Of a stretch of DNA of 35,871 nucleotides, positions 14,219 through 15,823 are shown one piece after another. How positions within the stretch are numbered: the stretch's first letter is position 1; every line of letters begins with the position of its first letter. The position numbers and the translations under genes are program-made. Below the pieces are notes generated by a model. That model was not told the origin of the DNA and searched no databases. It saw nothing but the letters and a program-made list of their open reading frames with translations. Location of the stretch: assembly GCA_937918955.1 (NCBI GenBank), contig CAKZRZ010000150.1, positions 1 to 35,871 on the forward strand. The letters are read 5' to 3'. The stretch comes from an uncultured Arenicella sp. GTDB taxonomy: Bacteria; Pseudomonadota; Gammaproteobacteria; Arenicellales; Arenicellaceae.

Positions 14219-14297
14219 ATTTTAGTGTTATTTTGGCTCTTTAAGGTTCAAATCTCGTAAAAGTGCCAATCAACGCTAATGATTCATAGACTAAAAT
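14219..14297. promoter_or_regulatory. Inverted ATTTTAGT elements in the divergent yceI/abiEi-like promoter region
   Basis: ATTTTAGT at 14219-14226 is matched by the inverted copy ACTAAAAT at 14290-14297. Ten of 13 bases agree when flanks are compared. The elements lie between two divergently transcribed genes and could be sites for a shared regulator. Confidence 0.3.
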
Positions 14298-14298
14298 A

Positions 14299-14349
14299 AT
14301 GTTCATGATTGAGCCATTTTTATTAAAAACGCACATGATTGCGCCATGA
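14299..14349 (+). CDS. Possible 16-residue leader peptide ORF
   Basis: A short ORF (ATG 14299, TGA 14347-14349) encodes MFMIEPFLLKTHMIAP. Its stop overlaps the start of the next gene as ATGA, the arrangement used for translational coupling. No Shine-Dalgarno is visible before it, so translation is uncertain. It contains both copies of the direct repeat described at 14304-14347. Confidence 0.25.
   Translation: MFMIEPFLLKTHMIAP
14304..14347 (+). repeat. Direct repeat overlapping the AbiEi-like start codon
   Basis: CATGATTGAGCCAT (14304-14317) and CATGATTGCGCCAT (14334-14347) match at 13 of 14 bases with a 30-bp period, about three DNA turns. The second copy overlaps the ATG at 14346. This is a good autoregulation site for the winged-helix protein encoded immediately downstream. 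Confidence 0.7.
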
Positions 14350-15425
14350 GCACCAAGATTTCAGTTGAAGAGCGTATTGCCGCAAGGGCGGTTGATGCAT
14401 TGCATGCTAAAAGCGGCTTGCGCCTTGAGATGACCGATAAAAATACGGTTCTAGGCACGGGGCTTTGGCCAGATATGTGTTTTGCTATCAGCGGCAGCGA
14501 GCTAGAGCTTGTCTGCGAGGTTAAAAACGGGCTTAGCCGAAACATGCTTGAGCCTGTTGTGAAGTTACTCAAATCCGCGGCAGAAGGGCGACCGCCGATG
14601 ATTATGACTAACTACATTGATGCTAAACTGGGTAAAGCACTGCGCGACCTGGAGGTAAATTATGTTGATGCAAGCGGCAATGCCTATATCAATTTGTCTC
14701 CGTATTTCGTCTTTATTGAAGGTCAATTAATTGCCGATGGGCTTACTCAAATCAAACCCGCTAAACCTTTTAGCGCGACTGATATGCAGGTAATTTATGC
14801 CTTGCTCACCAAACCTGAATTACTTAATCAAAACTATCGAACAGTGGCCCAGTGTGCAAATGTTGCCATGGGTGTTTGCGGCTCGGTATTACGTGAACTG
14901 AAAGATCAGGGGTTCTTCGTTGAAACTATCGTCAGTAACACCTCCGGTGTTAGCACCGTTAAACAGCGCGAATGGCGTGCACGGCATCAATTGATTGGTC
15001 GCTGGGTAGAGCAATATTCAACGCTTTCTAAGCGCACTTATTTAGGCGAATATTCATCCCCTGATTTGACTTGGCTGGAATCATCGGAATTTGTCGATTT
15101 TGATGCTCAAATTGGAGGCAAAGCCGCGGCGTATCGTTATGCAAATGAAACGCAGATGAATATCGATGGCGTGTCGGTTTACATTAATGATCAGCAGCAA
15201 TGGCAATTTATTCGGCAAATGGGCTTGAGCAAAGAGGCCTCAGAAACGAGCCAAAACAGTAGCGTGAAAGTTTATTCTAAATTTTGGGGTGATGATCATG
15301 ATGCGAAGAGCGCAGGGCAGCCTAAGATGGTGCATCCGCTAATGGCATACGCTGAGCTTATTGAACAAGGCAATGAGGCCGGACGCCTTGCGGCTAACCA
15401 AATTGCCTCGCGCTATTTTGTATAA
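14346..15425 (+). CDS. AbiEi-like orphan regulator with nuclease-fold N-terminus and winged helix
   Basis: The 359-residue protein resembles the group annotated as type IV toxin-antitoxin AbiEi antitoxins. Residues about 30-115 look like a restriction-endonuclease-type domain: P42-D43, then E58-V-K60 (a PD...ExK pattern), and the YVDASGNAYI strand typical of this group. Residues about 143-195 form a MarR-like winged helix (TVAQCANVAMGVCGSVLRELKDQGF). The C-terminal part ends with VHPLMAYAELIEQGN, another hallmark. AbiEi proteins repress their own operon and neutralise the AbiEii nucleotidyltransferase; no AbiEii partner is present here, as the next gene is YchJ. Nuclease activity is unproven. 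Its start overlaps a possible leader ORF and a direct repeat. Confidence 0.65.
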   Translation: MSTKISVEERIAARAVDALHAKSGLRLEMTDKNTVLGTGLWPDMCFAISGSELELVCEVKNGLSRNMLEPVVKLLKSAAEGRPPMIMTNYIDAKLGKALRDLEVNYVDASGNAYINLSPYFVFIEGQLIADGLTQIKPAKPFSATDMQVIYALLTKPELLNQNYRTVAQCANVAMGVCGSVLRELKDQGFFVETIVSNTSGVSTVKQREWRARHQLIGRWVEQYSTLSKRTYLGEYSSPDLTWLESSEFVDFDAQIGGKAAAYRYANETQMNIDGVSVYINDQQQWQFIRQMGLSKEASETSQNSSVKVYSKFWGDDHDAKSAGQPKMVHPLMAYAELIEQGNEAGRLAANQIASRYFV

Positions 15426-15439
15426 AACTCGATGTGGCC

Positions 15440-15823
15440 ATGAATTCATGTGTTTGCCAAAGTAATAAGGCGTTCAATCAATGTTGCCAGCCTTTGCTCG
15501 AAGGTGAAAAACACGCAAGTACACCGGTTAAGCTTATGCGCTCTCGTTATAGCGCTTTTGCCCTAGGTGGCTTTGGCCACTATTTAAAAGAAACTTGGCT
15601 TCCGAGTTTGGCACACAGTCTCGATGCAGCCAGTTTGTCGCAACGAAACATCAACTGGCAAGGTTTAGAGATCGTTTCAAACTCTCAAAAAGGTGATCTC
15701 GGCGTAGTTGAATTTAAAGCCTATTTTCTGGATGAGGGCAGTCAAAAACAAGCGCACCACGAGGTGTCACAATTTCAACGTATCGGCGGCAAATGGTTCT
15801 ATGTAAATGGTAAGGTTAGCTAG
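15440..15823 (+). CDS. YchJ-family protein (UPF0225)
   Basis: The 127-residue protein has the SEC-C-like zinc motif near its N-terminus (C4, C6, C15, C16: CVCQSNKAFNQCC) followed by the YchJ core LMRSRYSAFALGGFGHYLKETW and a compact alpha/beta end WFYVNGKV. YchJ proteins are widespread in Proteobacteria and have no defined function. ATG 15440 is preferred over GTG 15434; neither has a strong ribosome site. The gene starts 14 bases after the AbiEi-like stop, so it may depend on the same transcript. Confidence 0.9.
   Translation: MNSCVCQSNKAFNQCCQPLLEGEKHASTPVKLMRSRYSAFALGGFGHYLKETWLPSLAHSLDAASLSQRNINWQGLEIVSNSQKGDLGVVEFKAYFLDEGSQKQAHHEVSQFQRIGGKWFYVNGKVS

Follow-up and report, generated by a model that had tools for sequence, protein, structure and literature searches.

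A solitary abiEi-like gene in a housekeeping setting

The window – the whole stretch of DNA analysed here, 35,871 nt in length – is contig C150 of genome G000 (3.2 Mb in 308 contigs, 85.6% complete), whose closest named relative within the genome collection is an uncultured Arenicella; the lineage is an Arenicella-type gammaproteobacterium. Two neighbouring genes of the window are central to what follows:

14346–15425, + strand: abiEi-like gene without a toxin gene, 359 aa (PF09952/COG4861, "AbiEi_2")
15434–15823, + strand: YchJ-like gene (PF17775), a possible co-transcribed neighbour

The abiEi-like gene is present in one copy in G000, and the sole AbiEi family in Pfam matched by its product is PF09952 (residues 213–357; E=6.5e-13, 49.7 bits against a curated cut-off of 21), which one paper equates with COG4861 (PMC7251935). 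Within a sample of Gammaproteobacteria, relatives were detectable from the window protein in 22 of 369 genomes. Its closest orthologues make up subclade A, which comprises the genes of the window (G000), G007, G003 and G008, plus that of G012, located at another chromosomal site.

The surroundings are ordinary chromosomal housekeeping genes, and nothing among them suggests a mobile element or a defence island: the window encodes a pullulanase, MOSC and YceI proteins, the YchJ-like protein, a ribokinase-type protein, a nucleoside hydrolase, thymidine kinase, the ribosomal S16-RimM-tRNA methyltransferase-L19 set and quinolinate phosphoribosyltransferase. PADLOC-DB models matched no family in the window at E values up to 10, and an Rfam scan of the window returned no match. 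A preliminary description of this DNA had proposed a defence role; with no PADLOC match and housekeeping surroundings, we found no evidence for one. The same description had reported that AbiEii is missing nearby, and none is indeed encoded in the neighbourhood of the abiEi-like gene.

The YchJ-like gene starts 8 nt past the abiEi-like stop codon, an adjacency shared by the four subclade A genomes in which synteny is conserved. In G003 the genes beyond the YchJ-like gene differ, yet the YchJ-like gene itself stays adjacent. Adjacency as the ancestral state was considered but is not supported: other neighbours flank the ychJ-like gene in G002, G005, G009 and G013.

Predicted architecture of the protein

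The full-length protein was modelled with AF2 (mean pLDDT 87.6, pTM 0.83), and three domains can be delimited on the model:

14346–14720, + strand: N-terminal PD-(D/E)XK-type domain, residues 1–125 (AF2 mean pLDDT 87, structure matches)
14472–14525, + strand: putative catalytic motif D43 ... E58-x-K60 within it (conservation, placement in the model)
14760–15017, + strand: winged helix-turn-helix, residues 139–224 (VIA-align matches with CRP/MarR-type domains, Z as high as 8.6)
15018–15422, + strand: C-terminal AbiEi_2 domain with nucleotidyltransferase-like fold, residues 225–359 (structure matches)

The N-terminal domain has the order alpha-beta-beta-beta-alpha-beta, and its secondary structure is unchanged when it is modelled alone. 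In the full-length model, VIA-align matches residues 7–110 with NucS/EndoMS, where 97 residues align at an rmsd of 2.8 (Z 8.3), and with XisH (Z 7.4). For the domain alone the top matches are NucS/EndoMS, PaqCI, Hjc, AF1548, XisH and Can2-type nucleases, with Z values from 7.1 (rmsd 3.6, 94 aligned) to 4.3, each modest when taken singly; nearly all of the 50 matches listed are PD-(D/E)XK proteins. Foldseek likewise placed EndoMS and MspJI on top, at E values of about 0.02–0.03 (0.024 at best). D43, preceded by P42, lies just ahead of strand 44–48 of the model, and E58 and K60 lie within strand 54–60. Given the consistency of the match list, the order of strands and helices, and where D43 and E58-x-K60 fall in it, the model makes a convincing case, at the level of fold, that residues 1–125 adopt a PD-(D/E)XK-type fold. 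The likeness to the NucS/EndoMS, Hjc and XisH nucleases thus covers the predicted fold and the placement of the D-ExK residues; it does not extend to a sequence-level match, and the window domain differs from these enzymes in being fused to a winged helix and a nucleotidyltransferase-like domain. Searches of PDB sequences with profiles of the full-length protein and of its N-terminal domain gave nothing significant.

A nuclease-fold N-terminus had been suspected from the sequence, and at fold level the model bears this out. The P42-D43 and E58-K60 pattern and the HPLMAYAEL ending (residues 330–338) were also found as described, while the winged helix, first placed at residues 143–195, is extended by the model to about 139–224; a Pfam match of the winged helix to TrmB is a weak hint (E=0.21).

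Residues 239–359 of the model match the ANT(2'')-Ia and LnuA nucleotidyltransferases (VIA-align Z 7.1–7.7). This is informative because the structures 5KQJ and 4FO1, which one study gives as results of a DALI search with canonical AbiEi (PMC7319586), are both among the window matches: by that account, the C-terminal folds of canonical AbiEi and the window protein both match antibiotic adenylyltransferases. Canonical AbiEi structures themselves are absent from the structure matches listed for the window model, an absence that carries no weight. Since hhalign found no sequence homology between the C-terminal domain and AbiEii toxins, only a resemblance of fold to other nucleotidyltransferases is claimed.

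Canonical AbiEi (COG5340; S. agalactiae AbiEi, Rv2827c) has a winged helix followed by a C-terminal domain, as does the window protein. However, the canonical protein consists of these two domains with the winged helix first, whereas in the window protein an extra N-terminal PD-(D/E)XK-type domain precedes a central winged helix. Dy et al. state that COG4861 has no sequence identity to canonical AbiEi (PMC3985639). On the model, the window protein looks like an AbiEi-type core preceded by a domain of nuclease type. In the available portions of the literature that names COG4861 as partner of AbiEii-type toxins, we found no description of a COG4861 structure.

The toxin partner and its probable loss

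COG4861-COG4849 (AbiE-like) pairs, for example MenA4-MenT4, contain an antitoxin of the same family (PF09952/COG4861) as the window protein. Rv0837c of M. tuberculosis is a COG4861 member; MenA4 is Rv0837c, and the pair MenA4-MenT4 is Rv0837c-Rv0836c. COG4861 is described by Dy et al. as a regulator partnered with COG4849 toxins (PMC3985639). Outside the genus, the downstream side can be read for 25 homologues; in 20 of them a toxin-type nucleotidyltransferase ORF (with the motif typical of AbiEii) follows directly, usually overlapping. The window gene, unlike these, has no adjoining toxin.

Within the genus, a complete toxin accompanies the gene only in G004. At a second locus, G015:C2, the AbiEii-type toxin (L030:8680-9021) is cut to about 113 aa and stands beside an intact antitoxin gene and a full 20/20 operator (described below): this is toxin decay in progress. 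Subclade A and a second group, subclade B (G001, G002, G006, G013, G015:C1 and G017), have no adjoining toxin wherever the downstream side is readable; the G006 contig ends inside the gene, and the G013 gene, split over two contigs, was left out of the trees. In the tree of full-length sequences, the two subclades form a joint branch nested among the toxin-bearing rows G004 and G015:C2 (support 97/91). Because the orphan lineage branches inside toxin-bearing relatives, the toxin was most likely lost within the genus and the regulator retained. A single loss in the common ancestor of A and B is the simplest reading; two independent losses are possible, since support for monophyly of the ten orphan rows drops to 89/69 without the N-terminal domain.

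Orphan genomes were also searched with the G004 partner toxin, which found no homologue in any of them except the truncated one of G015:C2; G007 (99% complete) encodes no AbiEii anywhere. G000 has one AbiEii (PF08843; contig C21, L044:2641-4183), overlapped by an AbiEi_3_N/DUF6088-like gene. Within the 85.6% complete G000 assembly, a toxin partner elsewhere was rejected: the sole AbiEii has an antitoxin-like neighbour of its own, and a search with the COG4849-type toxin of G004 gave no match.

A solitary antitoxin might instead be kept to neutralise COG4849/AbiEii toxins brought in by mobile elements. Other contigs in the order often carry AbiEii genes, MenA4, itself a COG4861 antitoxin, is reported to rescue growth from MenT4 toxicity (PMC11211403), and the window protein retains its C-terminal domain, which in canonical AbiEi suffices for neutralisation (PMC3985639). 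Yet in the MenA study non-cognate MenA antitoxins failed to rescue MenT3/MenT4 (PMC11211403), the only AbiEii of G000 has its own partner, and the C-terminal domain is the fastest-changing part of the protein, with 18 non-synonymous changes between window and G007 vs 5 in the N-terminal domain. We regard such an anti-addiction role as unlikely.

Two further arrangements were seen at related loci. In subclade B the orphan antitoxin gene is closely preceded by a conserved ORF of 89–95 aa (L034:7077-7355, L036:7510-7797, L037:7191-7475, L039:8306-8590, L041:650-919), the product of which has an N-terminus resembling a signal sequence and the motif YxDPxTGE...LLSEMTD; a Pfam scan of two of these ORFs found no family above cut-off. 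In G044 (L040:1546-4248) a COG4861 gene without AbiEii is followed by a 900-aa ORF, the start of which resembles, by eye, a SIR2-type sequence, and which is possibly an exchanged effector.

Selection and the catalytic-type residues

Comparison of window and G007 reveals 130 synonymous and 31 non-synonymous codon changes (dN 0.045, dS 1.26), giving a dN/dS of about 0.04 with dS near saturation. Non-synonymous changes are fewest in residues 1–125, and the ORF is intact in all five subclade A orthologues. By these codon comparisons the gene is under strong purifying selection.

D43, E58 and K60 are all present in 5/5 subclade A proteins and in 16 of 22 toxin-paired relatives, but in 0/6 of subclade B, where D43 is lost in all six and K60 is kept in one. 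The conservation anticipated for these residues thus holds in subclade A and in most toxin-paired relatives, and this distribution suggests that the ancestor probably had the nuclease-type residues, which subclade A has retained and subclade B has lost.

These data bear on the idea that the protein is a stand-alone enzyme of defence or genome maintenance, in which the winged helix guides the PD-(D/E)XK domain to the DNA that it cuts. Consistent with an active nuclease are the predicted fold, the intact D43/E58/K60 of subclade A, the invariance there of VLGTGLWPDM (residues 35–44, the longest invariant run) and the low count of non-synonymous changes in the domain. Set against it are the lack of a PADLOC match, the housekeeping neighbours and the fact that across toxin-paired relatives D108-G111-N112 is more conserved than D43/E58/K60. 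Moreover, the losses of D43 (6/6) and K60 (retained in only 1/6) in the sister orphan lineage argue that catalysis is not needed for retention of the gene in subclade B. On balance, an active nuclease seems rather improbable.

Promoter boxes and the ancestral operator

The region around the start codon holds the following features:

14292–14297, + strand: TAAAAT, candidate -10 element (invariant in five orthologues)
14299–14349, + strand: 16-codon leader ORF, judged from conservation not to be functional
14301–14305, + strand: GTTCA, possible remnant of an ancestral operator (comparison with toxin-paired relatives)
14304–14317, + strand: operator-like box 1, CATGATTGAGCCAT (30-bp register with box 2, five orthologues)
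14334–14347, + strand: operator-like box 2, CATGATTGCGCCAT, overlapping the start codon (30-bp register with box 1)

The two boxes are identical at 13 of 14 positions and lie 30 bp apart, start to start. Such a repeat pair is not in itself rare: 15 of 356 stretches of 300 bp in the window hold one. When, however, box 1 is compared with the downstream sequence and matches are summed over the five orthologues, an offset of 30 scores 47/70 vs 30/70 for the next best; in G003 and G012, taken singly, another offset scores equal or better. It is the recurrence of the 30-bp register in all five orthologues that lifts the repeat pair above chance, and the boxes are conserved in G012 despite its different chromosomal locus.

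TAAAAT lies inside a conserved block (CTAAAATAA..TTCATG) that starts 55 nt before the start codon (56 in G012), and a second conserved box, around ATTGCGCC, adjoins the start codon in subclade A. With the window as reference and ungapped comparison, the 55 nt 5' of the start codon are identical at 41–42 positions (75–76%) to G003 and G008, vs 22/100 (22%) for the 100 nt farther upstream. A consensus promoter scan recognised no sigma-70 promoter on the + strand at the abiEi-like gene, a point against the self-regulation favoured below.

Genome searches with the paired box returned the gene's own promoter as best match in G000, G003, G008 and G012, and in G007 as a tie with two other two-mismatch sites; the pattern was built from these same promoters, and the result bears on uniqueness rather than function. 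As a search for a regulon it gave no convincing second site, the weaker matches being little above a reversed-pattern control. Box 2 could be retained for translation initiation. From their conservation and position the boxes would fit a self-regulatory site, self-regulation being documented for canonical AbiEi (PMC3985639); canonical AbiEi operators are inverted repeats, whereas the window boxes are direct.

The preliminary description had noted that these repeats cover the junction of the gene with the 16-codon ORF, and had suggested leader-coupled expression. The ORF is present and overlaps the start codon as ATGA, and the repeats are kept, register included, in the five orthologues, but the ORF is not. 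It overlaps the start codon in this way in the window and G007 only. In G003 and G008 a stop codon ends it after 6 codons, and in G012 it runs on into the gene in the same frame; between window and G007 it shows 3 synonymous and 7 non-synonymous codon changes. Being disrupted in 3/5 orthologues and free of coding constraint, the ORF was rejected as a conserved coupling device, and leader-coupled expression of the gene is hardly credible.

The upstream regions of toxin-paired relatives have in common an unexpected array of four half-sites, GTTCA-N12-GTTCA-N7-TGAAC-N12-TGAAC. All 22 toxin-paired loci score at least 14/20, and 18 lie above all 300 shuffles, numbers that are descriptive, the motif having been noticed and scored on the same loci. 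The array spans many gammaproteobacterial families (L007-L063) and lies within the 150 nt that precede the antitoxin gene; in three related loci, L016, L018 and L019, the half-sites take the variant form GTCCA/TGGAC. The window scores 15/20, above all 300 shuffles, its four orthologues 10–13/20 and subclade B 10–13. Toxin-paired relatives carry the four-half-site operator, whereas the window lineage has lost most of it and conserves a pair of direct boxes in its place. Because little of the array is left in the orphans, and because one of its half-sites (GTTCA) is overlapped by box 1, the ancestral operator has probably been replaced by the repeat pair.

Loss of the toxin and of much of the ancestral operator is what a decaying, functionless remnant of a toxin-antitoxin pair would display. 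Such a remnant would not be expected to keep its ORF intact in all five orthologues, to accumulate synonymous over non-synonymous changes in the ratio observed, or to conserve its promoter boxes even at the different locus of G012: we consider decay very improbable.

A probable domesticated regulator

We favour, with a probability of roughly two in three, the interpretation that the window gene encodes a domesticated, solitary, self-regulating COG4861 AbiEi-type protein. It draws on the fold, the family, the missing toxin, the conserved promoter boxes and the purifying selection, all of which are evident from computation; the strength of selection, together with a fold whose catalytic residues are intact, leads us to prefer a domesticated protein to a new defence system. 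The ancestor would have carried the usual COG4861-COG4849 (AbiE-like) toxin-antitoxin pair, of which the toxin would have been lost within the genus while the regulator was kept under selection. The winged helix would bind the pair of direct boxes, which are placed between the promoter -10 region and the start codon at a spacing of 30 bp, or about three helical turns, and the protein would thereby repress its own gene and possibly also ychJ-like expression. As modelled, the PD-(D/E)XK-type domain at the N-terminus probably helps to bind DNA or metal, and it may have remained catalytic. The stand-alone regulator first suggested for this locus is thus upheld in its essentials: an orphan, with a conserved repeat pair at its promoter and probably self-regulating.

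A bolder version holds that COG4861 proteins combine an AbiEi core with a functional PD-(D/E)XK nuclease and that, with the toxin discarded here, the window protein has become a free-standing DNA-targeting enzyme, or nuclease-regulator, acting via its own operator-like boxes; we think this unlikely.

Arenicella offers a graded series: a pair that is still intact (G004), a toxin cut short (G015:C2), and two subclades without a toxin, of which one has kept the catalytic residues and the other has lost them. The operator shared by toxin-paired relatives provides a concrete candidate binding site for the COG4861 family. Finally, the model would unite COG4861 with canonical AbiEi through a shared C-terminal fold and would add to it a nuclease-type N-terminal domain – which makes one ask if certain type IV antitoxins are themselves nucleases or had nucleases as ancestors.
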